Below the pieces are notes generated by a model that was not told the DNA's origin, searched no databases, and saw only the letters and a list, made by a program, of their open reading frames with translations. Below, piece by piece: positions 17,439 to 60,300 of a stretch of DNA of 64,000 nt (positions are counted from its first letter, which is position 1; every line of letters starts with the position of its first letter). The stretch spans positions 25,171,934-25,235,933 of the forward strand of contig NC_054743.1 of the NCBI RefSeq assembly GCF_018143015.1, read 5' to 3'. The position numbers were made by a program, and so were the translations under genes. This stretch comes from Lytechinus variegatus (taxonomy: Eukaryota > Echinodermata > Echinoidea > Temnopleuroida > Toxopneustidae).

Positions 17439-20400
17439 GTGAGTTGAATTTTTACTTGTTGATATTGAAGTCATTCTCTAAATTAGGTTCTGTGCAGGAA
17501 CATCATCACATGAACATAATCCATTATCTTCCTATTAAACAATACACATGCACGTCTATGGATCTTGAATGATAGGAATATAATTTCACGTTATTGATAT
17601 TCCAGTTTTGAATTGGTAATTGATGAAATATTATTAAATCACATGGTAAATACCGATATTAGAAAGCCGTGCAGATTTGTAGAGATTTGTATTTGTAACT
17701 ACCAGACGTATATGTGATATCCATTTATCAGTTCGTTTTATCATTGTAGTTGTGTACCGTTGAACTTCAATTGAAGAATACCATGAACATGATATTATAA
17801 ACTCAGTTTGAAATTACTCTGGAATTGGAAGACGAAGATTTGTATTCATGTTGGACTTTTTTAAAGAAAATTTACCATTGATTTTGATTGTGGAGTTGTA
17901 GTATTAGAGAGAATTGGGTTCTGGTATTATCTCTGGACAAGGAATATACCAGAAAATGTAAATAATATCACCTTTGGTCCGCCCATACCTAGAATCGGAA
18001 AGCCTCCGGTTCCTCGCTCAAAACTCGTGCGTCAAACAGTGCTTCTTTCCCGGCCAATAATGCATTCAACAGACTCTATAAACTGCAAGCCAGTATAGGA
18101 GATGAACGGCTTTTTGCACGCAAATTCCCCGTGCCTATCTGGATGAAATGAATACAAAATAGGACGGTTCAAACAGAGTTCATGCGGCCATTGGCAATGC
18201 AGCGCCAGTCAGCTAGATGGGGGTCATGCAGTCACTTATTCTACCCCATAACTCTCGGGGACGAAGCATTCTGGTGCAGCCTTTATTTATTTACCCCTTG
18301 CCCGAACCCGCCGAAAATTCCGGCAGGTCCGTTGCATTTAAAAGCAATGAGCTGGATGTTTGCATGTGTACACGGCCCCCATCGTAACCCAGTTGTCATT
18401 CTACAAATTTACGGTTGTATATCAATATCTGTATGATAAATAATACAACAGCTATAAACAACGTACTGTTCCGAGTTTTTAATGTTTCAGCAGCAGAGCT
18501 TGGAAATTTTCCCTCTTTTTCAAGCTCCTCTTCGGCAATGGACGAGACCGCCATGCTCTTTGTCTTTGTTTCCTCAGTGGGAGAGAATGACGTCACAAGT
18601 TCACATACAGTTCAACTGTCTGACGAGTCATGAAGGTTTCGGAATAGTTTCTATGCTGCCTGCGTGTATATTTCAGTCTGGGTGAATCTGTTGAAGTCAT
18701 GTACTCTAATGTCATGCAACATTTTGTGCAATGCGAGTCGAGACTTGTTTTGCACGTCGGGTTGCATAATTTGAGGTTTTCGAGAAATATGCAAATTTGA
18801 AGCGATTGCTTAGTTGTAGAGAATCTCCGGTCGAGAACTAAGAAATGTTATTTCGGAAGAATGTTCACGCTTCCACAAAACTAACAGGTAACCGATTCCG
18901 TTGATGAGGAGATTTTCGTATTTGCATCATCCCAATAATGATACCGGGACGCGATTATCATGATTATGAAAGTCTTTCTCATTTTCAATAAGCATCCTAA
19001 ATCAAACTGTTTGAGGTTTGTCTTGTCCTGCTTGCACAGAACGGGGAATACACACCCACAATACTGGGGAGCTCATTCTCAATGCCATTGTTTTCTTCCC
19101 GTGGATCTCTGTAGCCCACACTTGTTCTGGAGCCCTTCTACGGAGAGGGTAGTTGGTGGATATCAAAAGTATGTCGAATTCATAAGGTCACCACTCCTGG
19201 CTAGCTCTATGGAGCTGGACGAATTTGACCCGTCCGAGTTCGCAATTTATCTTCATTAAACGCTCTTCGTGATTTGGCAGTGCGGATGCAGTTCCGATGC
19301 TATGGCAACGGAAGCATATACAGCTGGGTACCCATTCAATATTATTGGTCTCTGTCAATCAACTCTTATTTATGATATTTCTATGAAACAATACAAACGA
19401 GGAGTAAAATGGGCGTGCTTTGCCTGTTTCGTTGACCAATGGGGTGAGCAGCTATCTTCGACCAACGTTGAACCCTGCCTGGTGACCTGCATTCGAGCCT
19501 CCACTTCTATCCGAGTGACCCCTTATCAAGTGACCCACTTGTGCCGTGTCAAAGGATCCGAACAGAATCTGCCAGTTATTGGTCAACATGCGTGATGCAT
19601 ATTCACGATAGGGAACTGTGTAGAGTGACTTACATCACAATGTCACTCGCATGTCCACCCTTCTTTGGCCATGCACTCAAAACAGCATTACGTATTGCAT
19701 ATTCATGATTATGAACTGACCCAGTTGTTAACCGTGTTGTCCCTATAGTATGAACTGACCTACATTGCCCATCCTGGTCTGGAAACCAAATTTTGACCAT
19801 TCACTAATTACAAAAGCTCTGGGATGGGTGGCTCTATCTCTAGGTGATCTTCTTGATGCGTCACACGGAAAATATATGCAATTTAATTTCTGGATAGATC
19901 CCAGAAGACTACTTCGACATCCGTCAGGTGAATGTTTATATGTCATGAGCAACCTCAATTACTGAAATTAGTTAAGTGATTATTAAGAATATTCTGGAAA
20001 CGACATTAGGGTGGGTCCAGTATTATCATGGAGATTGTGTTTCTCGCCCCCTTCTTTACCCAGGCTTTGTTCTCAACTTGGTACACCGGTAGCGATGATG
20101 ACTGAAACTTAGAAAGCGAAGCAAAAAATGAAGTAACCAGTGCCATAACACGTTAATCTTTGACAATATTAGGGATTGAATTTTCCGTTTAATTGACCAA
20201 GCAGTAAAATTGTACACCAAGAGTTGACATCGAGGACTTTTGAAAGGAGGATGCATTAAATCGAATTGGAACTGACCTGCTTTTCGTTTCATTGACATCG
20301 CGTTGAAATGCCCTACTTCCCAAGCAACTAGCTAGATTTTGTTTTTGGCCCTGCTCGATTACTGCTGTTAACAATTGTTTTCTTTCACAGGAAATAACTA

Positions 20401-23400: not shown

Positions 23401-23721
23401 TACATTAAGGGATTTCTTTTTATCTCGACAACCCATCAGGACCTGATGATCGGATGCCGCGAAACGGTTTTGACAGTACATTCCTGGTCTGATATTGGAG
23501 AAAATTTCAAGTTGTATTAACCATGTTGATACCAAAGAAAGTAGTGAGCGAAGTATCCCTCCGCCTCCCGCAGCAACGCCCACTCACGCACGCAATTGAC
23601 CTATCAATTTATCATACATTCTGAATAATTGAAAACAGTGATGTAAGGTAAATAGCGAATAGTTGACAGCATTTTTATCGCATTGTTATCATTTTATTTG
23701 ATCGTTTTGTCTTGTGCATTA
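17439..23721 (+). other. Presumed large intron, no exon recognised
   Basis: 6.3 kb between the two candidate exons. Several short open frames (e.g. near 18480-18690, 19020-19260 and 19269-19595) have plausible acceptors but no recognisable protein or matching donors. No repeats with clear ends were delimited. Confidence 0.3.
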
Positions 23722-23848
23722 GGTTGACATTCACGGAGACAACATGGCCAAGCAACTTCGACAGAAGGTGGGACACCAGCTTCGTAAATCGTTGCGTCGG
23801 TCATCGCCTCACTACCAAGATGTCGCCATGCCCCGATGTCATCCTCCG
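23722..23848 (+). CDS. Candidate small coding exon of the plus-strand unit
   Basis: A good acceptor (cgttttgtcttgtgcattag) precedes an open frame. It reads VDIHGDN, then MAKQLRQKVGHQLRKSLRRS, then SPHYQDVAMPRCHPP and TAG at 23846-23848. If spliced straight to the ATG at 17436, it gives a 43-residue, highly basic protein with an amphipathic Lys/Arg helix and an RRSS phosphosite-like sequence. I do not recognise it. It could instead be the last exon of a longer protein whose other exons I missed, an internal ATG start, or no gene at all. A second open frame across the same exon (TFTETTWPSNFDRRWDTSFV) looks less protein-like. Confidence 0.3.
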
Positions 23849-25510
23849 TAGCGTCGCCGAAGTGGTCTAGAATATCACACCACGTGTGGTGATATTCGTC
23901 GAGCCATGAATTCCTCGTCAGCTGTGTATGCGCTCTGCCAAAGGTGCTTGTACGCCAGGGTACTGCTACATAAGGCAAGCATCCCGAAACCTCAGTCAGC
24001 TTATACACCATCCCCAAGTCCGTTCCTGGAGGAGCTCTTACCCGCTTCGGGAAAATGCTGCTGTGTCGTGCGATTTTTTTTTCAGGTGAGGCCCAGTCAT
24101 GCGGTTATTTTAAGGCGTCAGGAAGAACAGATGCCTTTTCTACTTTTGCGGTTCAACGATATTTGGCGGGAAAGGATAAGGAGATGTAACACTTCGGAGG
24201 TCAGCTGCGGTAACGACGTGAGTTTTACAGTGCTTTCTATCTAGACTGATTAGCTACGACCCTTGCACCCTGTGGATTGGATCACCATCGGAAGGTCTTC
24301 TGACTTCAAAGATGTCGGATCAGATTCCACTGGAAGAAGAAGGCTGTCGAATTTTAATACTGTCTGGAGAGAAGTCTGTTGTCCGCGTTGGAGTCCACCT
24401 TTGTAGTTTAGTTGTTTTCCTCTATCCTCTATATTTTTATCGCTCTCACTTTCCCTCTCTATATATCTCTACCACACTCTCTTCCCCCATCACACTATCT
24501 TGACTCTACATTAATCACATTTTACACCTTTACACCCCTTCTCTGCACGTAGTTTATTAGAATCTTTCTGACATATCTTTTTAACCAATTTAATAAAGCA
24601 GCTTTGTAATTAATGATTAAACTATAAGTTATAAAATTATTGACTTTCATCTATTGTGACGTTGTGTTTCCTCTGTAAGAGGTCTGTATTCGCAGTTTTA
24701 GTAAAATTGTTGATTTTTTTTATGTATTTCCTTCCTTTTAAATCTTTCTATAAACTATTCCTAAAACGTGCGTGGATGTCATGCCTCCCAGTCCCAGCTA
24801 TGGTCACAGTTACGTGAAAAGAATTGCCAAAACTATTTAACTGATGTTGTTTTCTGTGTACAAGGAATCGTTGTTAAATATTTTACTATAGAAATTTCTT
24901 TGAAGTTGTTGATAGTGTTGACATGGTTTTTGAGACAGGCAGTTGCTCCCTTGTCAGCTTCTCGACCCCACCAACCACTAGTATTATGTTTGGGTTCATA
25001 TTTTGCATGAAATCCTATATATTGATCTTTGTAAATTCACATTAACCCCAAAGTAATGCACCGTAATCATTCAGTGCAGATAGAACTGCGCAAAGAATCA
25101 ACATTTTTACAGTTTCTTTCTTACCTTCGAAGTGCTTGTATCTCTTGCTCGCTTTTCTTTCCTTTCCTTCTTACAGGGTTTTCGTAGATGATTTTATCTA
25201 TGAATATCTCGCAGCCAATTGAAATGCAAAAGGACATCTCAGGTATACATTCTTAATGTAGAAACGGCTCTGACAAGTCCAAATATGGCGCGACAGTATC
25301 TTTCGATGTCTGTGTTTTGGGCAAGTTTCCCCTTGTGCGCGATGTATGCAAGTGCTTATTTTTTAATATACTAATTCGCTTTTCTCATAATGCTAGCTTC
25401 ACAAATATGTGTATCATTATAATGGCTTATTTCAAAATTCATTTTCTCATATCAGTGTTGGTCGAGGTAGGGGCATCTATTTGCAATTACACACATAGCA
25501 TTTTGGTATA

Positions 25511-25532
25511 GCGCATGCGCAAGCTGACGTCA
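25511..25532. promoter_or_regulatory. NRF1-type palindrome next to a CRE
   Basis: GCGCATGCGC (25511-25520) matches the NRF1 core, and TGACGTCA (25525-25532) is a perfect cAMP-response element 4 bp away. Both are typical of TATA-less promoters. They sit inside otherwise AT-rich, gene-free sequence. Confidence 0.4.
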
Positions 25533-25893
25533 GTAGCTGATTAGAACTAGGTTAAAGTAGTAGTATAGGTCTGGAAACTTTGTTTTCATTCATTGACGGT
25601 GTTTGTTCAGAAATGCATCACCTTTTATGTTTATTGAATGAAAGCATAGTTTCAGAAGGCCTAGTATTTTTTGCAATTCTTTGTAAACTATACAAGTAGA
25701 GTAGAGTTAGATCGTAGGATATAGCACCGAAACACTGAATCTGAAATATGAATGTAAAGTTATGTAATGTATGTAATGCTGAATCAGAGTAACGTTTATA
25801 TATTTGTACTGAATATTGTTAAGAGATGTAGGAAGGGAGTTATGTACGCCTTATGACGGTTAGAAGAAGCCGGAATGTAAAGCCACACGAAAT

Positions 25894-28189
25894 TGCTGCA
25901 AAAAACTGTCGTAGATTTAGAAATGAACTTTTTTATGTATATTGATATTTGAGTGTGTTGTAGTGTACGAGAAATGACGCGTCGGTTGTTTTGCCTGCGT
26001 GCGCGTCAGTGAGTGAAGAATAGGGTGGGGTGTATGAGAGTGTGTGTGCGTCGTGTGTTGATATTTCCATTTGAATTAGCGTGTTCAAAAAAACGGATGA
26101 CGAATTCAGATATGATAGCCCGTATTGTACATAAATGTAGGATGAGGCAGTCTTTTGTCTAAATGATTTTGGTCCTATATTATATACTAGTATCGATGCT
26201 GAAATAGTCGTGGTTTATTTGGATATGTTTATACGTATGCTGAAATGTCTTATGTTAAAACCTGCTTCTTAAAGAAGCCTGTTTTATTAATCTAAAAACC
26301 GTTTTTAACTTTCTTTTTAGAAGCGGATTTTATTTTGCAAAACTGTTGACAATGGTGCTGATTTGAAATATTTTTAGTAGATTTTCATCATTTTTTTCCC
26401 GTTTCTCTACCTGCTTTTAATGCGCGTATTAGGATGGAGTTGAGACAACTTCCTGCGCCGCATTACCGGTGATGTCATCATTTACCATGGCAACCCTGAT
26501 AAACTTTCAGCCAATCACAGGGACTGGTCATTGCTGGAGAAACACATTTTCTTTTCTTTGCACTTTCACTATGTCTTGTTCATTTTAGAAACATTCTAGA
26601 TCTCATTTGTAATATTTCCATAGTAGTTTATGTTCGCAATTTCCACTGAAATATTTTTTTTTTAGAAACGTTGATTGTCGATATTTATATTATTTTTATT
26701 ATTTTATTTTGTGGTAAGTCCGTCATTATACCCTGCCATTTTCAGATAATCGGGGGGGGGGGGGTAATCACTGTCCACATTTTGATTAAGTAAAAAAGAC
26801 GATTCCTACCATAACATGTGTCGGTATATCAACAGATCTAGGTCCGTGGTATAGGAGGTTACCATAACATGATATGCTGCTTTGATATAGAAATGCTGTC
26901 GTACCTACTTAGTTTGCTGAGAAGGGTTTAGTATTGGATGATGTGAAAAATTACTGACATTGTATTAGACTCTTGTTACTTATAGCATTGAAACTGAATA
27001 CGATATCGTATGATAGATTATGCTGCATTAGTTGTTAAGATGACAAATTATTGTTTTGCATATATTGAACGGTACGTTAGCTATAGAATGCTTAGGACAA
27101 TCAGTGATATCCAACATTAAAATCGTTACAGAAAGTCGGATTGCTTCGGGCACGAACGAGAATTGTCCCATGTGATTAGGTTAGAGTTACCTAAGTTCCA
27201 AATTGAACGGTATTTACAAAATTTCTGAACGGGGCTTGGTGGGTGTGAAGGATCTCAGTAACATGAATTATCTATTGCTCTAACCAAAGTATAAAGTTCA
27301 GTCATATGCTGCTATGGAGACCGTTTCAGATGTAACTTTTGGTGTAGACGGTCCCCTGTACACCACGTTATTGCTGCATGAAGGAATGACATTTTATATG
27401 TTACATCCTTCATAAATGTATAATATCACATAGGAGTTCCTTTCGTTTAAGTGCAGTTCCTAAACTCCAAAGTTCTTTTAAACAGTTGTGATTTAATTTA
27501 AGCCTCACACTGAAAGCATGCTGCATAGATTACAAATATTTGGATAATATGAATATCACGGTTACCTTTCTTAGCTTTAAGGAAAACTCGTCCGATTGCC
27601 AAATGAAATTATGAAAAAAACAATCCTCAGAAATCTCGTTTTTTTATCGCTCTTAAATGTTATTGTTAGGTTGAAACCAGTTTTCATCAAAAGTAGATTA
27701 ACTCTTTGTAGGGCAAGCTATTCATCAAAATTATTATTTTCCAAAATGATTATGCTGATGATTATACTACATACACAGTGCTGCGCATGCTCTTTATTAC
27801 ATTCTATATTTATATCGAGTCCTATAATGTAAACGAGCTTCATTAATATGCTACTTTATATGCTTGCATTAATTTAAATTTAAACTAGCTGATAAGTATT
27901 TAACATGAAGGTGGAGAGACAAATTCTACGTACTGCTGCAAACTGTGTCTACGCGCTGACTACGCAAATTGACCGGTTATACACCACAGATCTGCTGCAA
28001 TGTAACATAAAGTAGTTTGCTGAGAGGCCGTTGTCAAATCGACTTCAACAAATAGATATTAAACGCGATGGACATTCGTATATACGTGTATGGTAGCTTT
28101 AAATCTACTAATTGCTGCAACAAAATATTGTCTAAATTGGTTGTGTCCGACACACTTAATAGACAAAGTTTACACCACATCAGTGCTGC
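25894..28189 (+). promoter_or_regulatory. Cluster of ten TGCTGC seed-type sites (candidate miR-2013 targets)
   Basis: TGCTGC at 25894, 26875, 27021, 27307, 27372, 27519, 27934, 27993, 28113 and 28184. Seven are followed by A; those at 27021 and 27519 are ATGCTGCA. Three have ACACCAC exactly 5 nt upstream (27360-27366, 27981-27987, 28172-28178). As I recall miR-2013 starts UGCAGCAU and ends GUGGUGU, so the seed and 3' end would both pair. About 0.5 copies of a given hexamer are expected by chance in 2.3 kb. Confidence 0.55.
26470..26517. promoter_or_regulatory. RFX X-box / CRE-like / CCAAT cluster
   Basis: Within 50 bp: TGATGTCATCA (CREB/ATF-like, about 26470-26480), TTTACCATGGCAAC (26481-26494; 13 of 14 match to an RFX X-box on the minus strand) and CCAAT (about 26511). 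The three motif types co-occur in RFX/CREB/NF-Y-bound promoters. Their order here differs from the classical MHC class II module. Confidence 0.35.
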
Positions 28190-30239
28190 GTAAAACCGTA
28201 GATATAGATGACATGAAAATCGTTAAAGCGGATCGCAGACCTACTAAAAATTGTACATATTCGTTCCTGATCATGAGCAATTAATACTGTTTGTTTTCCG
28301 GTTTGTAAACCGAGATTTTTCATTTTGATAGGGCTGAAATTTGAGGAACAAGCACCGTTTAACCCATAAGGCGAAATCCTCCCTTTCTCCAGCGAATGAA
28401 TGCATGCACTTTTGTATTTTATAACTTTTATTGCCATATTTCACTTAGTACCATTCTGTTGAAGTTGCCATCTTTTAGATAATGCCTATATATATTTTGT
28501 GCAAATGTAAAGTCCAATTTGATAATGTATATAATGTTGTTTGCATATAATACACTCATATATTTGTGTGACTTGTGAACAAATGTGAACGTCAAAAGTG
28601 ACTTTACTGTACAAAATGGAAATCACTATCCTATCTAATTCAGTTGTACTGAAACGAACTCGAAAACGAATTATTTCATGTTAAGAACAATGAACATACA
28701 TTCTGCAAATATTCTTCCGAAAGAGTGGATTTTCTACAGAATCTTTCTTAAATGTTACGATTATTTCCCGATTTTAAAATACTAAGTATTTCAATACCTC
28801 ATCTCGTTAGTGTCAAATCTGCAAATGATTTATCCATTGTCTTGAAGGGATAATCTTGCATTTTATTCGTGAATGTGGGATTGTTGTTTTTCTCAGAAAT
28901 TGACAATTCTATAATACGTAGGAAATAATGAACGAGGATGGGATTTAAATGTGGGTGTGTATGTGTAAGCTCGTCCCCCTTTGTTGTTGTTTTTTTTATA
29001 CATTTATCATCCAGGGTACTTTTATATTACCCCCCTCCCCTCCAAAAAAAAAATCCGTCTCCAAATTGGCTATTACACATGTTTCAGATGAAAATGAAAA
29101 TTGCATTTAGGTGTGTGATTCACTATAATTATCATTATGTGTAAATTGGCTTTGGTATGCAACAAATATTATTGTATTCAGGGTCATTTTCTAGGCCAAC
29201 TAAAAGTATACGTTTCTTAATATGTGAACTATTATCTTGTAAGTGCTGTAGAAACGTGAGAAAAAAAATTGTCATGTTAAGACAAATATTGTTAATAGAA
29301 GGAAAATGTGAAATGTGCCATTGAAAGTGAACTTAGAATTAGCGGTATCACACTTTTTGTTTCATGAGCAGATGTTCTACATCCTTTATCTCTTTATAAT
29401 TTTTGTAATAGTTGATGTAATAGAAAAACTACCAATTACCATGTTCCGTGATATCTGATACAATTTTCCCCATCACTTAAGGTTTTGCGTCCACGATTGG
29501 GGGTCTCTCAGGATGTTTAAATTACGAGATTATTTTTTGGTTTTTATCTCTTTTTGTATATCTAATTTTAGAATTAATATTCTTCTTGTAGATTGAGGAT
29601 ATAAGAATAGGTATAGTTGTGATATAGTCATGGTAGTGATAGTGTATGTTTAGTGTATATTTAGTATAGTGCATTATTCACAGTTTGTTTTATTCTCATG
29701 TGAAATGATGGTACAAGTATCAAATTTTATACGAAATTTGCATCTTCGTATTGTGATTATTCACAAACTGCTCCGTCGATATATATTTTTTTTCTTTTAG
29801 AAATGTATTTCATTTTCGGGTGATGCATATTGGGAATGCTGGGCATTTTCTTTTGGCATTGTTGTGTAATTTGTCGATGCTGTTACCATGGTCACTGTAT
29901 ACAAAAAAACTGCGGATATCCCTAAACTTAAGCCTATTGGAAATAGTCGCTTCTGGCCAAATACAATTTTTTTTTCACAAATCCGTAAAACGATTTTCAC
30001 GATTTGTTATTGTATATAAAATTGAGCTCTTGTCACAGTTTTGCCGTGATGAGGATTCTACGCGTCTGAGCACTTGATTTGCTCATTGCTCTCAGAATCA
30101 ATGAATTACGTTTTATGAATATTGGTGTTTATTAAATCATCCCCCTTTCATAAAGTAATAATGTTTAAAATGCCAAATTGAAAAGGGGAAACTTTCATTG
30201 CACCGACTGTAATTAGCATCTGTAAATTCTTTATTTTGA

Positions 30240-30249
30240 TGTAAATAAA
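30240..30249 (+). terminator. Polyadenylation signal of the plus-strand unit
   Basis: AATAAA at 30244-30249 overlaps a Pumilio-type TGTAAATA (30240-30247). It lies at the downstream edge of the T-rich 3'UTR-like region; repeat-rich, G-run-containing DNA follows. Confidence 0.4.
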
Positions 30250-30262
30250 ATGATTTGAAAGC

Positions 30263-33200
30263 TTAATCAGTTAATCTTGTATCTCCGCGTCCCCATTTTT
30301 ACACAAGCATTTCGAGAGAAAGGGGGGGGGGGGAGATGATAAATGGAATGTATGTGGGTGTGTGCGTGGGAAGAGAGTGAGTGAGGGTATGTTTAAAAAA
30401 ATGTGTGGGTGGGTGTGTCTGGCTGTTTTGGAGTGAATGAGAGAGAGAGAGAGAGAAGATGGAGGAATCAAGTGAGATAGGGCAGAGGGGTGTGCGTATA
30501 AGACGGAGAATAGACCGTCCAAAAACAAACGTTACAGATCAAAGGATCGAAAATAAGAGTATGTTTATAATGACGTAAATTAAATGCGTGTGTCTCCCCC
30601 CCCCCCCCCCCCCCCTCTCTCTCTCGGTTCCCTCTGTTTTACTCGTTTATGGGTTTATTCTCACTCGCTCTGCTCACTCGCAATGTCTAAAGGCTAATTC
30701 GGAAGCAAGTAATGTCCTTAATAAAAGCTAGAAAGCGGATTGACACCACTGGCCATGGTATACTGAAAGCACTGCGAGGAACAGATGCGTGTGTGGTGAG
30801 TGTGTGTGAGAGAGAGAGGGGGGGGGGGGGGGGGCCTGGGAGATTATCGGACAGTACGAAGGAGGGGATAAACGGGAACAACATACACGTTTTGAGTTTT
30901 TTTCTGTGCAAAATATGAGAGAGGAAAATAATGATCTCATGATAAGACATGTTTTCCTTGAGGAGGGGAGGGGCTGAGGTAGTTTTCAGGCACAGACCCT
31001 GACTGAAACAGATCAACAAGTGTGTATCCACGCAAAGACTAGCACATACAAAACTTGCTGTTTCAATTCACGAGCCGTAGGCTGCACATTCAGACCCTTA
31101 ACTCGAGTAAAGGGTTTGCGCAGCAGACTCGGGATGAAGGTCGGGTCGTCTCATTGCACAAAAGTGTTTTTCGCTGAGAATTGCCATTATTTTATTAAAG
31201 TTCTTGGAAATTGGGCGCTTCTTGTGCAATCTGCAAATTGGAATAGTATGCGGGGTTTGGAGGAGGGGCGGGGGAGTGTTTTAAATCAGATTAAGATAAG
31301 CATTGCGTTTCGACTAGTTATCAAGTAATCATGATGAGCTAGAGACAGTCATTGTCATCTTCATCAACGACATGAACGAGAATCTACCAACCTACAATCT
31401 ATTTTAGGCCAGAAACAATATAACATTTCTTTTCTCTCTGTTTTGTTCAAAATAAATTATTCAACTTCGTTATTTTTCTTGTTGCTGCTGTTCTAATGGC
31501 GCACTGGAAATCTTGACGTCCCTGACCTAGAAAATTGTCCGTTCAATAGCTGTAATATTGCCTCATTATATCCGCGTCTGTCTGGTTGTCTTACGCACGT
31601 GATCAATATCCTTCGTGACCTAAATACCCAGGGCATAACCAGGTGAAATGGAACGATCGAGGAGTACAATTATCCCTGTCATTACAGTTTCACAGTCATA
31701 TTGTAAGAGTCAACTGCAAGGTGGTTTGAAAGAACAATGAATTTATAACGGGCGGATCCAGGATTTTCCAAGGTGGGGCAAATTTTTCGGAGGAAAATTT
31801 TGACAAGCCCACCCCCCCAAAAAAAAGGTTTTCAACCACAAATTAAGGATATTTCGTCCACGAAAAAATTGAAAATTGACAAACCAAAAAAAAGGGGGCT
31901 TCAATTTTTTTTTTTTTTTTGGGGGGGTATTTTAAATTTTTTTCAAATGTTTTTCACACGATTTCCATTAAAATGTCACTGAATATCTGTTTACTTGCTG
32001 GTTTTGTCCCTGGTATGACGAATCAACATGGTCAAAGGCAAAAAAACATATTAACAATTAACATCAGCTCCGTTTGTTTTCTTTAATTCATTTTCAGTAA
32101 TATTATTCGCCTCACCCATTGCACTACAAATAAGGATGCTTGCCCCGCCTCTCAATTTCGACGAAGTACACTCTTAAAGTCATGTGCATATGCAATCCTG
32201 TTTATCTATCCTAAACTCTCGACATGCCATAGACACTATACCGCCACGCCCCCTTCTGTTACCTGTTAAATACCTAGTGAAATCAATGTAGAAAATATTT
32301 TGCGCATTTATTTTTTTCCACTAGATTATAGCTAGGGGGAAAATAGCTGGTTATATCGAGAGCAAGCCATTTAGCCTCCAATGCGCGCAAACAGATGTGA
32401 GGGGGAAGGGGTGGAGTGATGAGGATTTTTTCGCTTTTCATTTATTTTCCGAGAAAAAAAACCCCGCCTACTGTTGTCTTACCTCATGATGGTTTTCATT
32501 GATCTTAGCTGACAGGGTGTCTCTTTCCTTCTCCAAACTAACATTAAGAACTTGAAGTTGTTTCTTCTCTGCGTATACAGTCGCAAATCCTTCTTCCAAC
32601 TCCTATCAATAAAGATTTCAATCATATCAAATTTCATCTGCATAGCAATCCAATATTTTTAAAAGAAAGAAAACTTACTTTTGTCTCGAGATACAAAATA
32701 ATTGTCATAAATACAAATAAGTGAAATTACTAGACAAACTCTGCGTGTCTGACACCCAGAACCCGCCAAGTCGCCAACAATCAGCATGGTCAACTAGTAT
32801 TTAAATTCCCCCTTTTAAACATGATTTATGTCTCTTCTTATTAAAGTCCACACAATTTTACCATGCAATTATACAATCATGTACTATTCAGATATAGTCG
32901 TCGACTGATGCCAATTGGAAGAAATACAAACGTGATGAATTCCTGTAAGCAAATGTAGAGACAAGCGCCACACATAGGAGGAATATTAATGCGTCCATGT
33001 TAAATAGAGTTGTAGTTTGTTTTTGTGATAAGTGTCTGGATGAGTGTTCGTGTGTTTACTTAAAATTTCACCTCGTCAGTGGTGTATCTTGGGGCAGGGG
33101 GCACCTAGCTGCCCCCGGCGCCATTTCCCAAGGGGTGCAAAAAAGGGACAAAGTGAGGAACAGGAGAGGACAAGAGGAAGAAAATGGAAAGAAAGATGAA

Positions 33201-41222: not shown

Positions 41223-44200
41223 TTAAGACATATTCGATGTAGGGATTAGAAGCAGATGGGAAAGTACATCTCTAAAACTACTATCTGCATTATCTGTAGG
41301 TGCAGGAGTTGATTCACTTGGCACTGGAGCAAGAGGGACTGGATCAGGAAGAGAGACTGGATCGGATGGGTCAAAAGGGGGAATCTCAACATCCTGTAGA
41401 AGCCGTTCTTTCTGCTTTCTCAGAGATACAATGGCAAATTTCTGGCTGATTCCAAGCGTGTTCAGGAAGAAAAGTTTGCACACATTCTCCTGCCAGTCTC
41501 CCAACTTGAGTGTGTATTTCATGTGCACCTTGCGAGTCAGCTTCATCTGAGAAGCTGGGAGTGTTCGCTTCTTGACGGCGGTCTCTTCGATGCAGTCCTC
41601 CATGTATTGACGCTTCTTCTCCCAGGGCATTTCCTTGCTCCAGAACATGTTGAAGATCTTTTCCCGCATCTCCTGTGGCACACGTTCCAGGCATTGTTTG
41701 CGACAGTTTGTGCAAGGTTCCTTGATCTTCCGGGCTGGGATGACGTTGCCTTTGTCATTGACATAGGTCTGACCAGCACAACGCATGTCGGCTGTGTCAC
41801 TAGGACGATACCTTGGTTTGGTATGATCAACCTGCCCAGAGGTTGAAGGAAAATCTTCAAGCAGTTCATCATCCTTCTCCTCTGCAAATTTCTCTTCCCC
41901 ATCGTATGTTTCTGGCATCTGTTCGGGAGGCACTACTGGCACAGAGCACTGAGGACCAGCAGAAACCTGAGCCTTCCTTTTTGGAGGTGTGTAATCTTCA
42001 TCATCATCATCATCATCTTCATCATATTCTTCTTCACTTGACGGTTGATAGTCTTTATCATTTTCTGCATCTGTAGGTTCCATAGACATTTCATCTTGAT
42101 TATCCAGAATGTCACCCTCTGGACCATCAGCAGAAGTAGTGGCAGATAATTCCTGAGCGGTTGCTTGCTTTAAAGAACTGGAGGCTGCCTTCCCAGACTT
42201 ACTCTCTGCCTGTTTCTTCCCAGCAAGCCTGGTGGATGAACTCGGAGTGCTTGCTGTCAACATCTTACTTTCCTCAAAAATTTTCATTTCCTCGCAGAAC
42301 ACCCTCCTGTACATGTAAGTGCTTGCAGGCTTTGTTCCTCGCATCCAACAACACTGACGATAAGCGGCATACATCTTGGAGACGTTCCATGACCATCCTC
42401 TGGTTGAAGAATGGGTCTGATACTCTCTACCCTTATTTGGATCTGCCCAGCAGTTGTAGATGATGTGCTGTCTGATCTCTTGGGCTGCAGCAGGGGGTAA
42501 CTTGGCAAGAGTTCCAGACTTCTTCCTCTTGGCTGGATCAAAATCACCATTTTCATCCTGCTTTGCAATACAAGAAGCTATGAAATTATGACTAAGGCCA
42601 AGGGTGTTGACAAAATACTTGCGACAAACGGGTACTTTCTTACCATCCACCTCAAAGAAATAAGTGAATCTGTGAGGCCTGCCGAACCTTGTGGCAGCCC
42701 TAGCCCTCTTAAGTCTTATCCTAGATTTGATGACAGGCCTTGATTCTGTACAGCTGAGGACATACTTCTTCTTTTCTGTCCAGTCTTTATTAGGATCCCA
42801 GAAGTTGTTAAATAGGTGTTGTCTTTGCTCTTCTGTTATATGCTCTGTGCAAGCTTTCTGGCAATTCTCACAAGGCTCTTTCATCTTCCGTGATGGCCTA
42901 ACTTGACCTTTGAAGTTCACATACTCCTTTCCCCCAAATCTCAAGGCATGGTACTCTTTCAACTTGTCTTTCAGGCTGCATTTTGGTTTGGTATTGCGGA
43001 TACGTTCTTGTTCTTTCTGCCAGAGCTCTTTGATGAGGCACTCAAGAGCACTGACCTGTGGCGTAGGAGTGTAGTCCAGAGGGCGCTCTTCATTTCGCAC
43101 TTCATCTGGTCCCTCTAATCTCTGCTGGGATATCCTAAGCTCTTCATTCATGAGCTTACGATAGAAGTGCTTCTTGACCGTTGTTCTCTGGTGCATCTCG
43201 CACTCCTGAACATACGAGTCATACATCTTTGGAAGGCTGACCTGTTCCTGCGGTCTATTCAAGATATTCAGCTGGATATGCCTCCTTGCCTCTTGCTTCA
43301 TGTCGTAGGGAATTTGGTTCGCAGCTGGATGCCTACCTCGTCTATCAGGTATCACTTTCCCATCAACTGTCTTTTTATGCAGTGATATGATGACAAACTT
43401 CTCTCCAACAGCAAGGGTGTTGAGAAAGAATCTCTTGCAAACCTTCTCCATGATGCCATCGCAAGTCAAATGGTAATGGAAGCTGATTCTGCGGGCTTTC
43501 TGATCCAGATCCCTCTTGGATCGTCTCCTCTGAATAGGCTGAGGCAAAGCATGTTCGATGATGTACATTCGTCTGTAGGTCCAGTCCTTGTTACTATGCC
43601 AATAATCATCAAAGATCTCCTGCCTCTGCTCCTCGCTGATCCTCTCAGGACATCGCTGCCTGCAGTTCTTACACGATTCCTTCATCTTCCGAGCTGGCAT
43701 GACGCATCCATTCGAATTGATATACGGCTGCCCTGAATTGCGCAACCTCTTGTTGGTGTTCCTCTTCCAGGCTGCTGGGTTCCGAGCCCTCTTCTTAGGC
43801 TGCCCACCTTTGCTTTTCTTGGACCTTTCCTTAGGTTTAGGCTCAGCTGGCAGAGGGGCGGTAGTCTTTGGGAGGTACTGCGGTTGGTTGAATGTCACCA
43901 GCCCTCCCCTGTTATCATCAAAGCTATGTAGGTTGATGTCATCTGCAGCACTGGTACTGCTGCCTGCTCCTCCTCCTGGTCCTCCAACCCCTGGAGGTCC
44001 TATGTACATGCCTTGCATCCGATCATGGGGATGGTGGTGGTGGTGAGGATACCCATCTCCCGGGACCTGAACAATTCATCAAGAAGGAAAAAACAAGCAA
44101 GGAAATTATACATCATGCAAACTCTATTTTTTATGAAAGGAATAAGATTAGATAATATGAAATACATGATAATGCATCAGGAGTTGAAGGTTTAATGAAA

Positions 44201-50975: not shown

Positions 50976-51056
50976 TTTTTTAATGGAATGAGTATCATTA
51001 CACAGCAATAAAGAGGACCATTTCAATAATTTTGTTATGGAATCTACCAAATATTA

Positions 51057-51321
51057 CTACATAATTAGACGAGAGCCGGGGATGTATCTGGATTCGCTCC
51101 ATATGTTGGATTCGCCGCAGTTCTTCAGCGTTCGCAGGCACTGCTCACATCGGTGGTACTGGTCGCACTGCTCGTGGAGAAGGATGCCGGGGCTCTGGAG
51201 TTTGAGCATCTGCTCCTCCTCCCGACTCTTCTTGAGGGCCGTCGCCTCCTTCCACGTATCCTCCAGGGATTTCCTCGTCTGGAATGCCTGCTCAAAGCGA
51301 GCCGCACGGTCAGCGATCAAT
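51057..51321 (-). CDS. CCDC81: CCDC81 exon 13 (stop codon)
   Basis: Encodes ELIADRAARFEQAFQTRKSL, a basic coiled coil, and the C-terminal CDQYHRCEQCLRTLKNCGES motif with four spaced cysteines. The reading frame ends SRLIM, TAG at 51057-51059. Minus-strand AATAAA candidates lie downstream at 50970-50975 and 50928-50933. Confidence 0.93.
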
Positions 51322-54300
51322 CTACACAAAAGAAATATAAAAGAATGTATCAAATATGATTCAGTGGCAGGGAAAATCTAGTTAAAAGATACATACTCAA
51401 GTCAGCCTTCCAACCTGAAAGATTGGAAAACAGGACTGATTTTGCTCAAAATAGGAAAAGAAATTGCATTTCCTGCAGACTGCACAGGAAAACTATTCTT
51501 AAACAACAGGAAAATTCAATCTCCACAAGAGATTTGAATGGTAAAACTTCAGATCTTTTTTCTCCAAAAGTCAAAATGAATGAAAAGCCTTCATAAATGT
51601 ATGCATGGGACAACTCATTAAAAGCATATCTTGATTGGGAATTGCGAAAGGTCCAAGTCAATGCTAATATAATAAGAAGCCAAAAATGTCAACATTTTGT
51701 TAACATTTTTACGCTTCTTATATTTACTGTGTCCCTTTTCTAAGCTTTAATAGTGAAGAAAACTATTTTAATTACCGGTACCAGTCCCATAATGTTAATA
51801 ATAAATTGAACACCAAACGTGCAATCAAATTGAATCTCAACTGTTTCAGATTTTACATGTAGATACAGTTGGCTATCCATAGCTAAGCCACAACTTTAGA
51901 CATGAAAACCAAGTTCAGAAAACAGGCCTGTAACTTACTCTCTACGAGTCTTCTCCAGCATGTCTGTCTCTTCATTCTGGGTCTTGACATGGTTAGACAG
52001 GTTGGTCTTTCGTCTGTTCTCTACTGCTGAGATCTGCTCCTGAAAGACCTCAATGGCTCGCCGCCTTCGCTCGGCAAGCTGCTCGTTGGTGGCGTCAAAC
52101 TTGCCAAAGATAGGCTCCTTAGAGTCGGGCACTGCCCCTGGCAATGGTAGAGGCTTGAAACGCACCTACAGAGAGAGAGAGAGAAAAAAAAAGGGTTTTT
52201 ATAAAAATAATAATCATAGCTATATTGAAGATGAAACCTGGTATTCCATGATAAATGTGGAAAAAAAATCGTTTTTTTATTCAGTCAAACAGGAGTTAAA
52301 TTTGAATACTACTGTCAAATATTTTGTCAGCACTTTAGCCCTAATACTGTAGTATAATTTTTTTGTTTCAATGTACAATGAGGCCCCTTCATTTTGAAGC
52401 CTTCTTAAGAAAGGATATTTCCTACCTAATCTATTAAATAAAAACGATTCATATCATTTGGATATTCATTAAAATAGTGAATAGAAATTGGGCAAAATTT
52501 GAAACTTCCCTAGTATGGAAAAAGCATATTGGTCAATGATGTTTAGAAAATGAATCGAATTGAAATCAATGATCATTTATTACTTTGCTTGGTGGATAAT
52601 TTGAAGAAAATATGGAACAGTTAATGTACATACTAGAACTAATCATACAATACAGCCACACAATTGAAAGTGTTACATGGTTGCATATGAAACTGAAGGA
52701 TATGAGAAGCATGCAATCAGAAGAAATATTAGCAGTGCAATGTTATATATTAGTGGGTAATTTTTAAAGATTCTACCATGCGATGGTTGGGCATCTTCAG
52801 CCGCAGGGGCTCCGTCTTGGAGAACGGCCGGATAGTCTTGGGCGTCGGCAGTGTCAGAGGGCTCATCTTGCCCGTCTGAAGGCGTGGGTCCGCGCTGCAG
52901 CACACCCTCGGAGGAATGCCCTCTTCCTTAGAATGAACCCCTTCCCCGTACCCCTCGCAGCAGGCCTCCTCCCGGGGGCTGAGACATCCCTCCCGGTCCG
53001 CTTCTACCACAAGGGTGTAGTTCGCTTCCTCTAGCATTTCCAAGGCACGTTTAATCTTGATCTGATATATTCACGTAACCATTTTTTGCATTTTTCCAGT
53101 GTTGGATAGTTTAATGTTGATAAGGATTCCATAAATGGAAGGAATATTGAAAACATCAAGCGCCCCAAATGGGTTTGAGTGCATGTGTCCAAAATAATTG
53201 TATTAATGTTATGCGATGGATTAGTCATAATATTTGACATAAGTTGGTTAAAGATTGAAGGGTATATAGATCAGAATTGACCAATCGAATTGTAATATTG
53301 TGTTTTATGGAATGAGAGTGATTTTTAATTTTCATTTGTTTTGGAGGAGTAGGACGACACACAATTATAAACAATTCAGCAAGATATGAATTAGTTTTTG
53401 ATGGGTGCAATGAGAAAAGAAAGAGGAGAAACAGAGAAAAGGGGGAAATAGGAAATAGAACAGACATGAGATTAACAAATAACTTTGTGCAGTCATATTA
53501 AAGAAAGAATAAAAAGAAGTCTGCTTTACAATATTTTAGAGTAACATAAAAAAATAAAGATTTTAATCAGCTGGAGATATCAAAATAGATACATGTATGA
53601 TAGAAAAGAAAAGGATGTATCCTACAGCGAAACATAACATTCTAACCAGAAGAGGAAAAAAAAAGTTGATGGGATTGATGATTATAAGATGCCAGAGTTA
53701 TAACACAAAGAGATTGATATTGGTTTATATTGACAGGAGAAGGAAATACCACAAAACCCAAGAAAGAAGTTAGTATGGTTGATAAGGGGGGGGGGGGGAG
53801 GTGCATAAAACATCATATTGAAAAGAAAAATAGGTCTTTCACCAAAAAAATTCAGGAACCCATTTCATAAAACCTGTTACAATGACAAAATTGCAATAAC
53901 AGGAATACATAAAGCTAATGAAAGCAATCATTTTCTTGGCTAATTGTAAACTTGTTGCAGAAATTGTAAAATTATTATCATAACAAGTCTTTTATGAAAC
54001 GGAGCCCTGATGAAATATACAGATGAAAAAGTAAATTACAGCAAATTAGACTTTACATTAGAAGAAAAGGGATGTCATTGTGGTGAATAACAGCAAAATT
54101 CCATGAGATACAATGACACAGTGAAGAGATGAAGGTATAAGTTATGAATGAGGTTGATTACATACCTGAGCTGAGAGTGCCCTCTTGTACATATCGGTTT
54201 GTTCCATCTTATCTCTGAGGTATCTCTCCCTCTGTGCTGAAAGCCTGTTAAGATTAAGCATGAATATTTAAAAAAATATGAATTAAGGTCCATTTGTCCA

Positions 54301-57300
54301 CCATTCTTGACTGATCTAGAGCTGTATATGGCCCCAGTTCACAAACAATGGTTTTGGAAGTGAGGTTTTGAAACAATGATCTATTCAAATTTTCATGCAG
54401 TAGATTTTGAGCATACTTTGGAAAAGATCGTAAAGTGAAACTGAATGTGATTTTGTCAAAGGGAGCTACATCCATGCAAGACAGTGCTGTGATTTGAGAT
54501 GATTTATTTAAATGAATTTACCTAAAATACTTTCTCATTTGCATGAACTGCAGCATCCTGATGACTTTGGAACACTTCAAATTTACAAAAGAGCCTACAG
54601 TCAAGATTCGGAGTCCCCTGTAACGGGCGAGGGAATATCTGGAATGAGAAACTGTTCACTTACTCTTCTGCCAGTTGCACTTGTTCTAGCCTCTCCAGGA
54701 AGTCTGTGTCTTGCTTGCGTTTGACCCTGTCAGTGGCTTTAGCTTCTACCTGAGATCCAAGATGAGCAGCATACTCCTCCTGCTTCAGGAAGCGTGGCGG
54801 AGTCCGGGCACGGTTTTGGAATACGTACGATCTCTGTAGGAGAGGAAGGGTGATGATAGATTAATTTAGATCCAAGTAAAAAAATGAATAATAATGAGGA
54901 TAACACAAGTGATGCTTTGATGAGAAAGGAGAAGGATTGTCAATGATTTTATACTCATAGGCCCGTATTCTGAAGTCGGGTTCAACTTAAACTCAGGTTT
55001 GAAATTGTGGTTCAAGTATGGATAGCCAATTGTTACTTAAATCACTAACAGTAGAGATTTCAGCTCATTTGGCTCTCAAATTATTCATAATTATCTAGGA
55101 AGTATAAAAAGATGATTGTCTTCACCATCGATGAATCAGGAAAGAGCACAGTAAACATAAGAAACATACAACTTACTCAAAAAATTTCGACACTTTTGGC
55201 TTGCCATAATTTTAGCACAGAGTTAGACCATGGTCTAAGTTGCGCCTGAGTTCAAAATACGGATCATAAAAGATTGCATAGCTCTTTAATATATAAAACA
55301 GCAATGTCACCTCTGCCAACTCAAAAAGAAAATCCAAACTGGCATTGATAAACCCATGACATCACAGCCATTTCATTGTGATGTCACAAGTTGTGATTCA
55401 TATCATGCAGTGTGACGAGTAGCTTTAGACAATCATTTTGAAGTTCAAGTAGCTTCTTAAATTCTCTGATTGATCATGGAAGTTTCCGGACTGGACATGA
55501 TTTAACAAAATTTGTGGCAGCTGTCATATTTTTGATGCCTCATAATAAATGATTAAATAGTTAAAATATTGGTGAGCCACTTGTTTCTAAGCACATATAT
55601 ATCGTATTTTAGGTGTGGACAATGATGTTTTTGCGCTTTGTTTAGACTTTAATCATGCTTTACATAATCATAACAATTCATCAAAGCTGTCTTTCTAGGC
55701 ACATGTTCATAAACTAAAGTACATACCAATATTGACATAAGAGGCACAACTTACATGAAATTCTGTGGATCTTTCCTTCTGCTTGTTCTTAATTGCCTCA
55801 CTAACACCGAGATTAAAGGCTGCTATCTTCTGGGAATGATGCTTGTTAGACATATTCTGAGCCTAAAAATAAAAAAAAGGTGATGATATTACTCTGCCTT
55901 CACATCGCGATTGATTGATGTCCTCTAGATCATATCAGTCATCAGCTTCTAATCTGTCCAAACACCTTTTCCATTCCCTGAGGAGCACTGCTACAACAGT
56001 ATCTAAGCTGAAGTGACGGATGTCAGATGTATGCACTTTCTTCACTCCCTGAGGAGCATTATGGCATTGGCTTCCAGGTTCAAAAGATTGATTTGACTGG
56101 AAAAGTTGTTGAACGATTATACTTATAGCTGCCATTACTAGACCACTCTATTACATGTATCTTTGCTTTTCAACTGGGAGTAATAATATCATTATCATGG
56201 GGACATATCCTTTGTCTGGTGACATCATTTCTCTATTACATGAATCGATCATTATAAGAATGAAACAAACAGAAAGCTTCATTCTCATATTATTGTTTAT
56301 GCACTATATAATTTCTACTAAGTTGGTTCATAATATGCATCTCACTTTTGTATGATTCTTGCATGTCAATTGGACATTTCCGACCTGCGATTAGCTTGCT
56401 AGATATGATTTCTTTTTAATGATTCTATCTATATGATCTGTTTCAAATACAAAGTACATTTACTTTGAATTCATTTAATTTATGAGGTACACATTATTAT
56501 TATGAAGTACAACGCTTAAAATTTATTCATAGCTAAATATTGAGAAAGAAACTTCATATTCTTTGTGCTCCAAATGCACAGTGCAAGTTCGGTTTTGATT
56601 ACATCTATCACAGATTCTTACCTGATCTCTAAGAATAGACTCTGTGTCTTTCAAATGCTGAAACTGTTGCAACAATCGATCTTGCTCCTGTTCCTTCCTC
56701 TTCCTCTCAGCCTCGAACGATACAGGTACATTGCGCACCGCCCTCTGGTGGCAGAGATAGCACAGTTCCTGTCCTGCTTTCTCATGGGCATGCGAGCAAG
56801 AGGCGGATCTGGACCTCTCCATCGCCTCGGCTTCATTTGCGAGGGATTCACGGATCTCTGCAGGGGAGCGTGGAGGAGGGAGTTCCCCCTTGGGGGAAGG
56901 GGGCTTGCCTGGAGGGGGTGACGGGGTGCCTTTTAGGCCTCTGGGTTGAGGGGGTGGGGACGGGGCAAGGTCATCTAGGAGGCTTAAGCTGGTTGCCTTG
57001 GCCGTGGGGATTAGTTGCCGGGATGAGGGCCGCACCGGTGTGGCCGGTTTCTTGGGTGCTTCTACGGATAAAAAGAATAAATAAATGACTTATGAGTGAA
57101 CATTTGTTTAAAGTCAATCTCATGGATCAGTTCAACTGTCTAGAAAGTAAACTATGACACACTTCAAGAAAAAAATATAAAAGCAGAGACAGTTAAGGTC
57201 TAGAAAGAAGGGTTGCATGTACTGTAAAACCAATATTTAGTTATTACTTTTATAGAGATTTGCCACTTAAATTGGACAACTTTTATAATATCTAAATAAG

Positions 57301-60300
57301 AATTTAGACCCCTTTCAATTGAACAGAAATCTGTAAAAGCTGATCTGAATTTGAAATAACTGATACTTAAAGAAAACTTTGAAGAATTTACTCAAAGTTG
57401 AATTACCTCTTTAAAAATGTCAAGTTTTTAAAAGTCTATTCTGTACATATTGTATAGCAATTCTAGATCATCTAATACAAGCTTGATTATCATTCTCTGC
57501 ACCATATGGTGGCCAAAATGATCACTACTTGCTTGATAGGTTTCCAGTATTTTAACATGCAAGATATCTGTAGGGCTTCATAAAACAATGTATCTAAACT
57601 CTGCAAAATAGTACCCCAGTTATAGCACGGCTTCCCTGCTCAGGCAGTCAAGGAATCAAGGATTTATTGCCATAATCTTACCATCTTCTATTTCTCTACC
57701 AAGCCCCTCATCTTCCTGTTCGGGAGCGTCACCAAGGCGCGACTCTCCACGTTCTTCAATCTCTCTGACCTCTTCGATAGCAGGCATCTGACGCTCTTTA
57801 TCCTCGTTCTCAAAACTGAATCCATCCTTGCCTGCACCCTGAGTGATTCTGTTATGAAGAGAAGCACTCAAGGTTATTCAAGAGATCCGGGGGAAAAGAT
57901 ACACAAGGACTAGGGGCGATTTCACCCCCGAAATAGCCCTGGAAACTGGAATATGGAGCCCTAGAAAATCCCTATTCATTGCACTGTAAAGCTTATAAAA
58001 TGTTGCAGTTAGACAAAAATTCCTGAAAAGTAGCTCCCCCCCAAAAAAAAATAAATAAAATAAACCTTTAAAAATCACAAGGCATGTCTTTCAGCAGAAA
58101 TCTTAAGGATGCTAGCCTAATGAAAATTGTACATGAAGTCTTTTAAAAATATATACATATTGGGTAGACAAAAACAGTGTATTCAAATTTTCAGCATGTT
58201 CATAATACAAATTTTTGGGGAAAATATTTTTCATTTGAAAAATGTAGCCCCCTCCCCCTAATATACTAATGATGAATCATTAAAGAAATGTAGATTAATA
58301 AATAGAATAATTTAAAAAGAAAAAAAACATTTTTTTATAAATATCTATAGTAGTGGGCATAATTTTTCATATTTTTACGCTCCAGAAAGGATATATAAAT
58401 TTTACATTTAATCCTAACTTTATATGTACGTCTGTGACCATCCATGTAAGAAAAGTTACCATCATTAATCAATGTAAACTTAAATTGATGAAACATTAAA
58501 CTTACTTTGGTAGAACAACTGTACCACCTGTGGCTGGTCTGAAAACACTGGCCCTCGATAGCACAGAGTCTGCTGTATCAGGTCGCTGGAACAAAGAAGA
58601 AAAAGAAAATAAATTTATTGAACATGTGTATGTGCAACATCCTTAATTAAGCCTACACAAGTAATAATTGAGGAACAGAAACATGCCCCCCCCCCAAAAA
58701 AAAAAAATATATAATAAATAAATAAAAATAAATACAAAAATAATAAATAAATAAAACAATAATAATTTCTCCAAACATATTCTGCAAATACACGTTCATG
58801 TAAATGTACCAATTTTTTTCCAAAATAAGAATTTGAAGGTGGCTCAGAAAAAAAAGGAATTTTCAAAATGGCAACAATTGCAACCTCATACTGTATAAAA
58901 ACTGTCTCCTACTTCCTGTATCTAGACAATCCTTTTAAGACATATATGTAATTGGAAAGTCTAGCTTTTTCTGAGCTGACCCAAAAATGTTTATAATTCC
59001 AGAAACAACTACATGTGTACAAGGTTTTAATACACCAGCAATGATATGACACATTAACCATATTTTTTGTAATTTAAGGAAAGACAGATTAAATGCCATG
59101 GACAGTATCGATGATTCCTGGATGTATACCAACAGTACTGTATTAACCTTAAGACTAATTTGTAGATTGTAATGAAAAGAGAAATGCCATTGTATGGATG
59201 TCAATGCAATAATGCAAGTTAGAGCTATGCATCATATTAGTAAAGGAAAATGAAATATCTCAATGCCAACAGTTTATTAATTCAGGCCTTCTGCTCCAGC
59301 TGCCATGGCAACCGCATCAATTCATCAATTACGATACTGCCATTGATTATCATCAACCCCCATTGCTCTCTTGACAACAATCGATACGGTTGAGGGAAAA
59401 TGACCTTCAATTTCTGTATTTCATTTGACAATGGACTTTCTAATGAGGACGATGCTTGTTGAAGGTTTGGATTCATAATATACAATTGATAATTGGAAAA
59501 TACTGGTCCTCATCAGCAGCATTCTGGTTTTGTTGTAGTAACATGCGCTCAGAGCGACATTTCCATAGTTACTTCTTGCCAATTGGAGTGTATATGATAT
59601 GAATTTTATTTCCTATACTCCACATCATAATAATAATATGCAACATTTATATAGCGCTTAATACAAATGTTTCTAAGAGCTGCATAGTATTACCCTGGCT
59701 TTAGCACGGCTACCCTGATCGGGCGCATCGAGTATTCCAAGGAATTTCTCCCTACTGGGTACCCATTTATTACACCTGGGTCGAGAGTGGCAAATGTAGA
59801 TAAATGCCTTGCCAAATGACGCTAGTGCTGCGGTGGGATTTGAACCCCAGACCTTGTGGTTCACAGTCCGGAGACTTATCCACTGAGCCACAACACATCA
59901 TAACCTTTTGAGGGTATGTGCATCATAATCAAGTAATGAACTGATGGCATGCATACATGTACATGTATAGTTTTGGGATTTACTAAAACTTTTAATTAAG
60001 CTTTTTATTAAGTTATTAATTTTCTATTACTTACATTTCTGAGAGCTTCAACTAGACGACCAGAACCATCCATCATATTGAGGAAATCCTTATAAAACTT
60101 CATCTTGACTTTGCTATCACGGATTGTCAGACGTCCGATGCCGGTAAAGGTGAATTCTACATTCTTCTTAGACTGGACACAACGAGAAAGCGCCTGAAGA
60201 ACTTCACGAACACATCCCTCTACAGTGTCACGATCAAAGGGGCTCTCATTGGAAAGTGTTGCAAAGTTGAGTTGAACGATGGGGACTTGACCTAAACATG

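Follow-up and report, generated by a model that had tools for sequence, protein, structure and literature searches.

A stretch of 64,000 nucleotides (nt) from the sea urchin Lytechinus variegatus (assembly GCF_018143015.1, contig NC_054743.1, positions 25,171,934 to 25,235,933, hereafter the window) carries, between window positions 25894 and 28189, eleven plus-strand TGCTGC hexamers that match the seed of the microRNA (miRNA) miR-2013. With a probability that we would put at roughly 0.8, this cluster is a multivalent miR-2013 binding array lying in a non-coding, probably terminal exon of a plus-strand transcript. Transcription of the locus, binding by Argonaute and any direction of regulation are inferred, and the cluster is best regarded as a strong candidate array that adds to the multi-site miRNA targets or decoys already known.

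The hexamer is greatly in excess. More than half of the window's plus-strand copies (11 of 20) fall within this region, for which an order-2 Markov model expects 0.36 (Poisson p ~2e-13 for 11), and in 2000 dinucleotide shuffles of the same sequence the count stays below 11 (mean 0.47, maximum 5). All seven plus-strand TGCTGCA heptamers of the window lie inside it, and of the core TGCTG there are 19 copies where 1.9 would be expected, always on one strand. GCAGCA does not occur between 25894 and 28189, its closest copies lying at 23570 and 31120, and CAGCA is likewise absent there; this one-strand bias (11 versus 0 for the hexamer, 19 versus 0 for the core) argues for a signal at the level of RNA. 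Across 300 shuffles no hexamer with at least three different letters and at least three G or C letters occurred more than six times, and when every hexamer was scored in stretches of 2.3 kb across the window, only TATATA/ATATAT, runs of G and of C, and TGATGA/GATGAT/ATGATG outscored TGCTGC. Elsewhere, taking as background the 144 kb surrounding the locus and 80 kb of a second copy of it, TGCTGC reaches at most 4 per 2.3 kb.

The original prediction had described ten such hexamers where about 0.5 would be expected, all on one strand and free of GCAGCA: the cluster and its strandedness stand, and the count rises to 11. Its tally of site types was right for the 8mers (two), the 7mer-m8 sites (two) and the 7mer-A1 sites (five), and wrong in giving a single 6mer where there are two, so that nine of the 11 sites are canonical 7mer or 8mer matches to the miR-2013 seed. 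ACACCAC does lie exactly 5 nt upstream of three seeds, as it had claimed, and the fourth extended site that it quoted has the correct letters and begins at 26861, not 26862. The sites are listed here together with their state in the second copy, which is described further below.

Site 1, 25882 to 25900, plus strand: TGCTGC at 25894; 7mer-A1; 3' pairing to miRNA nt 11-19; identical in the copy.
Site 2, 26861 to 26880, plus strand: TGCTGC at 26875; 7mer-m8; pairs along most of the miRNA; identical in the copy.
Site 3, 27020 to 27027, plus strand: TGCTGC at 27021; 8mer; little 3' pairing; seed identical in the copy.
Site 4, 27306 to 27312, plus strand: TGCTGC at 27307; 7mer-m8; in the copy 12 extra nt upstream add ATACCAC, pairing with nt 15-21.
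Site 5, 27360 to 27378, plus strand: ACACCAC-N5-TGCTGCA, with ACACCAC at 27360 and TGCTGC at 27372; 7mer-A1 with 7 contiguous 3' pairs (nt 15-21); -11.1 kcal/mol; identical in the copy.
Site 6, 27506 to 27525, plus strand: TGCTGC at 27519; 8mer; weak 3' pairing; the copy lacks 3 nt upstream of the seed.
Site 7, 27764 to 27784, plus strand: TGCTGC at 27779; 6mer (7mer-m8 in the copy); 7-nt Watson-Crick run ACTACAT.
Site 8, 27926 to 27940, plus strand: TGCTGC at 27934; 7mer-A1; CTAC 3' pairing.
Site 9, 27981 to 27999, plus strand: ACACCAC-N5-TGCTGCA, with ACACCAC at 27981 and TGCTGC at 27993; 7mer-A1 with 7 contiguous 3' pairs; -11.2 kcal/mol; identical in the copy.
Site 10, 28105 to 28119, plus strand: TGCTGC at 28113; 7mer-A1; CTACTA 3' pairing; identical in the copy.
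Site 11, 28172 to 28189, plus strand: ACACCAC-N5-TGCTGC, with ACACCAC at 28172 and TGCTGC at 28184; 6mer with 7 contiguous 3' pairs; -11.2 kcal/mol; identical in the copy.

As a separate observation, TAGTTTGCTGAGA is present twice in the same region (26910-26922 and 28013-28025) and is not accounted for by miR-2013.

The sequence of spu-miR-2013 is given as UGCAGCAUGAUGUAGUGGUGU (PMC4669494), and a miR-2013 read with the same sequence is recorded from the sea cucumber Apostichopus japonicus (PMC4526669). Abundance appears low in sea-cucumber coelomocytes, where miR-2013 contributes only 0.018-0.028% of reads (PMC4669494); Aja-miR-2013-3p is reported at 606, 1427 and 1331 across three conditions (PMC5677170), and the main text of a paper on sea urchin and sea star embryos makes no mention of miR-2013 (PMC3247247). 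The genome from which the window comes holds one perfect match to the miRNA (C2:83674351-83674371), whose flanks form a hairpin at -42.3 kcal/mol, and one more match with 2 mismatches; the miRNA sequence given in the original prediction agrees with both the published sequence and this exact, hairpin-embedded copy. When the 6mer seeds of 38 echinoderm miRNAs were tested across 23.7-30.26 kb of the window, only miR-2013 was strongly enriched (12 versus 1.02, p ~1e-9), the next-lowest uncorrected p values among the 37 others being 0.041 (miR-10) and 0.043 (miR-2007). The assignment of the cluster to miR-2013 is upheld by this enrichment, unique among the 38, and by 3' pairing that exceeds background at part of the sites independently of the seed. 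Vertebrates are not known to have miR-2013, and searches of the open-access literature by name and by sequence brought up no paper on a target of it.

Pairing beyond the seed extends in an unbroken run at the three bipartite sites (5, 9 and 11), where ACACCAC pairs with all of miRNA nt 15-21, and at site 7, where ACTACAT forms a seven-nt pairing further inside the miRNA (-9.4 kcal/mol for nt 11 and above, RNAduplex). Watson-Crick runs of 7 nt to nt 9-21 occur in this way at 4 of the 11 sites, compared with 0 of the 23 other TGCTGC hexamers on both strands of the window and 46 of 8858 sampled positions. Mean energy with nt 8-21 is -8.0 kcal/mol for the array and -4.9 kcal/mol for the 23 others (Mann-Whitney p 0.0075), and just 2 of 20000 random sets of 11 positions from the region match the array's mean. 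For nt 11-21, a threshold of -9.6 kcal/mol is passed by three sites, by 0 of 56 other TGCTGC hexamers in 144 kb and by 256 of 12982 sampled positions; six of the 11 have extra 3' pairing at least as strong as -8 kcal/mol.

A search of the genome (869.6 Mb in 33 contigs) with the bipartite motif ACACCACN{3,9}TGCTGCA returned 44 matches (20 forward, 24 reverse), and the pattern read backwards returned 14. One of the 44 is the miR-2013 gene and four belong to the array locus and its copy (L033-L036), which are the only ones to place two motifs within a locus of ~3 kb among the 30 matches with locus sequence; by their listed positions, no two of the remaining 14 lie within 3 kb. On this search, the array locus with its copy is the only place in the genome with two bipartite sites within 3 kb. 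A corresponding pattern for miR-31, the single control miRNA, gave 19 matches, no two of them within 3 kb.

The copy itself repeats nearly the entire window colinearly at C4:22.56-22.64 Mb, on the same contig and 2.6 Mb away, with 93-96% identity in blocks longer than 3 kb, 84-97% in shorter blocks and 96% across the array. It is likely to be an unmerged haplotype of the assembly, a true duplication being less likely, because several other pattern matches also occur as identical pairs that share a contig at distances of 0.01-6 Mb, although repeats may account for some of these. The copy keeps all 11 seeds. Divergence between window and copy reaches 28 substitutions in the 250-nt bin starting at 30450; low and high divergence alternate along the sequence, which is a weak guide to exon borders, because most bins at 30.7-32.5 kb, beyond the candidate transcript, are also low. 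The near-palindrome GAATATCACACCACGTGTGGTGATATTC at 23870-23897 lies in a block free of substitutions between the copies.

Several observations nevertheless weigh against a functional miR-2013 array. TGCTGC is at least as dense in other parts of the genome, with 15 copies in 3 kb at locus L029 and 13 at L031, mostly at regular 93/198-nt steps and with one bipartite motif each. Seven of the 11 sites have 3' runs of only 3 or 4 nt, and miRNAs with shuffled tails pair equally well on average in 226 of 5000 trials when nt 8-21 are shuffled and in 89 of 5000 when nt 13-21 are, because of which the 3' signal must be called moderate, resting on about half of the sites. The ~46 substitutions between the copies in 2.3 kb predict ~1.3 changes in the 66 seed letters, and since so few are expected the observed absence of changes is not significant, divergence being too low to prove selection. 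At 27307 the window is without the 12 nt that supply ATACCAC in the copy and take 3' pairing from -1.8 to -9.3 kcal/mol, and at 27519 it is the copy that is missing 3 nt.

Apart from their bearing on density, L028, L029 and L031 (C4:16.2 and 18.8 Mb) carry TGCTGC mostly every 93/198 nt and are probably a tandem repeat of ~291 nt. Regular clusters of this kind provide a precedent for a reading in which the array is a decayed tandem or dispersed repeat that contains TGCTGC by chance. Here, site spacing is irregular (59-981 nt), no tandem repeat was called across the 11 sites, and a genome search with the array region found one other match, the full-length copy (very common words being skipped by the search). 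The contexts of the sites outside the pairing letters are no more similar (14.4) than random pairs (14.2, standard deviation 2.4), and the three bipartite sites agree in TACACCAC and TGCTGC and elsewhere at scattered letters only, with no position of their 5-nt spacers common to all three. On these grounds the decayed repeat is disfavoured and we regard it as very improbable. A local duplication of about 180-190 bp, once proposed to link the pairs 27934/27993 and 28113/28184, finds no support in the same contexts or in direct alignment of 27900-28020 with 28080-28210, which scores 15 with the shared pairing letters included, when shuffles average 9.4 and the best of 300 also scores 15. The context pattern argues against recent local duplication, and repeated selection for pairing would fit it. 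Slightly less credible still is an element acting on DNA, in which clustered transcription-factor sites share a TGCTG core; the excess of that core would suit it, but all 19 copies are one-stranded without a single CAGCA, unlike most protein sites on DNA, and there are matches to the 3' end of miR-2013 too. A coding repeat was also tried and rejected: the three TACACCAC..TGCTGC sites can be read as codons Y-T-T-x-x-L, and no frame of at least 60 amino acids runs over the other two bipartite sites. Plus-strand frames of at least that length touching 25894-28189 are limited to 27581-27832 and 28063-28284, which contain 3 of the 11 sites (27779, 28113, 28184), the second frame encoding VYTTSVLR at 28184.

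Returning to the miR-2013 array, its host would be a plus-strand transcript lying downstream of a creatinase-like gene (Creatinase_N, Peptidase_M24) of the same strand, which stops at -429 and has its AATAAA at -19, before the window begins. By a simple in-house score, splice-like signals above cut-off between 15.0 and 30.3 kb comprise donors at 17439 and 24086 and acceptors at 18578, 20064 and 25177, and an exon start at 23723 falls below that score. Pairing 24086 with 25177 would yield a terminal exon that holds the whole array:

24086 to 25176, plus strand: candidate intron, proposed from consensus signals (CAG|GTGAGG donor, polypyrimidine tract, CAG|G acceptor).
25177 to 30265, plus strand: candidate terminal exon with all 11 sites; AATAAA at 30244, putative end near 30265.

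Searches for coding potential in this host were negative within their scope. No Pfam domain was found in any plus-strand frame of 1-25.5 kb, in the two of three plus-strand frames searched at 25.5-40.5 kb or in nine candidate open reading frames (ORFs), and at gathering thresholds the window has no match to an Rfam family. Nor did a codon-usage model, for which the window's own minus-strand ORFs were the training set, identify a host gene, its scores near 24 kb being weak and alike in two frames and on both strands. Six candidate exon joins, whose start was set arbitrarily to 16400 or 23400 and which use the below-score exon start at 23723, give a longest ORF of at most 112 amino acids, and the A-B-C, A-C and B-C joins at most 84. 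The candidate host RNA looks non-coding, with an mRNA for a small protein possible, and the two kinds of host are given about equal likelihood.

The idea that the array might lower free miR-2013 was set against validated degradation triggers, of which 12 of 13 are described as having at least 6 contiguous 3' pairs, with 3' energies of -9.6 to -17.1 kcal/mol and 3-11 nt unpaired between helices; the seed site is in most cases one of high affinity, usually an 8mer, and 3' pairing often begins at nt 12 or 13, although wild-type HSUR1 functions with a 6mer seed (PMC10899785). Three of the 11 sites have such a contiguous 3' helix (7 pairs, nt 15-21), site 7 having its 7-nt run in mid-miRNA, and the same three fall within the energy range (-11.1 to -11.2 kcal/mol for nt 11 and above), bearing in mind that site energies come from RNAduplex and the published range from another program. 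A 5-nt target spacer lies opposite nt 8-14, RNAduplex drawing weak pairs at nt 9-10 in some sites. The usual, non-obligatory 8mer is absent from the three extended sites (7mer-A1, 7mer-A1 and 6mer); weak seeds are nonetheless compatible with a trigger role, because wild-type HSUR1 works with a 6mer. The genome also encodes, on C18, a relative of ZSWIM8, which serves as adapter in this degradation pathway, with a PF21055 match and two ORFs matching ZSWIM8 of PDB 9rwz (E 1.6e-25 and 6e-26); PF21055 matches C11 as well, where the one ORF tested had no PDB match.

Like Cyrano and other triggers, the array combines seeds with at least six contiguous 3' pairs and a 3' energy in range; unlike them, its extended sites have 7mer-A1 or 6mer seeds and a helix from nt 15, and several sites share one RNA. 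The lin-14 3' untranslated region (3'UTR) of C. elegans, reportedly with seven lin-4 sites, offers a parallel in its many partly complementary sites for one miRNA within one non-coding RNA segment, and differs in being a proven mRNA target, whereas the array has a candidate host only, more sites and a different miRNA. CDR1as/ciRS-7, said to be a circular miR-7 sponge with several times more sites, is similar as a dense one-miRNA seed array in an apparently non-coding RNA, and differs in its reported site number and its circularity, no circular form being known for the array.

The proposed mechanism is that miR-2013-loaded Argonaute would bind the 11 seed sites of the host RNA, several complexes at once, with miR-2013-directed silencing of the host, titration or possibly ZSWIM8-type degradation of miR-2013, or both, as the consequence. 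If the former dominates, the array would be the 3'UTR of a protein-coding mRNA strongly repressed by miR-2013 in the style of lin-4 and lin-14. The number and mixed quality of the sites fit such a target, and the few or no differences between window and copy at 16.4-17.6 and 23.6-24.4 kb, which are partly GC-richer, leave room for small exons; against it stand the missing Pfam domains, the weak codon-usage scores, the longest ORFs of 84-112 amino acids in the six joins and the end of the upstream gene before the window. If the latter dominates, the RNA would be a non-coding decoy (sponge) or a target-directed degradation trigger, for which the apparent absence of a coding gene, the three sites within the range of known triggers and the ZSWIM8 relative all speak, and which is weakened by seeds below the typical 8mer, a 3' helix that starts later than the frequent nt 12-13 and the weak pairs at nt 9-10. 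Since the searches turned up no coding gene for the array's RNA, the two are weighted equally, each at somewhat less than an even chance. The original prediction of a regulated mRNA or natural sponge is partly supported: its assignment of the sites to miR-2013 holds, and a 3'UTR is one candidate for the region. A more specific version is more tentative still, at around one chance in three in our estimation: the host would be a long non-coding RNA, produced by splicing, whose 11 sites include three or more of partial trigger geometry and which acts on this echinoderm miRNA as decoy or degradation trigger, in a mixture of multi-site sponge and Cyrano-like RNA.

Elsewhere in the window, a tandem repeat of 163 nt with 3.1 copies lies at 244-744. 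The minus strand carries a 950-amino-acid open frame at 41223-44075, within which segments containing Cys (PARKMKE.C.NC...C) recur and for which no Pfam family passes its cut-off, and a CCDC81-like gene at 51000-60300 (HU-CCDC81_euk_2, E 5.5e-32; domain at ~60059-60283).

For the biology of miR-2013, the array represents one very strong candidate partner, in animals whose embryos accept injected inhibitors and mimics. A host shown to be non-coding would allow a test of whether echinoderms, too, evolved decoys and degradation triggers.
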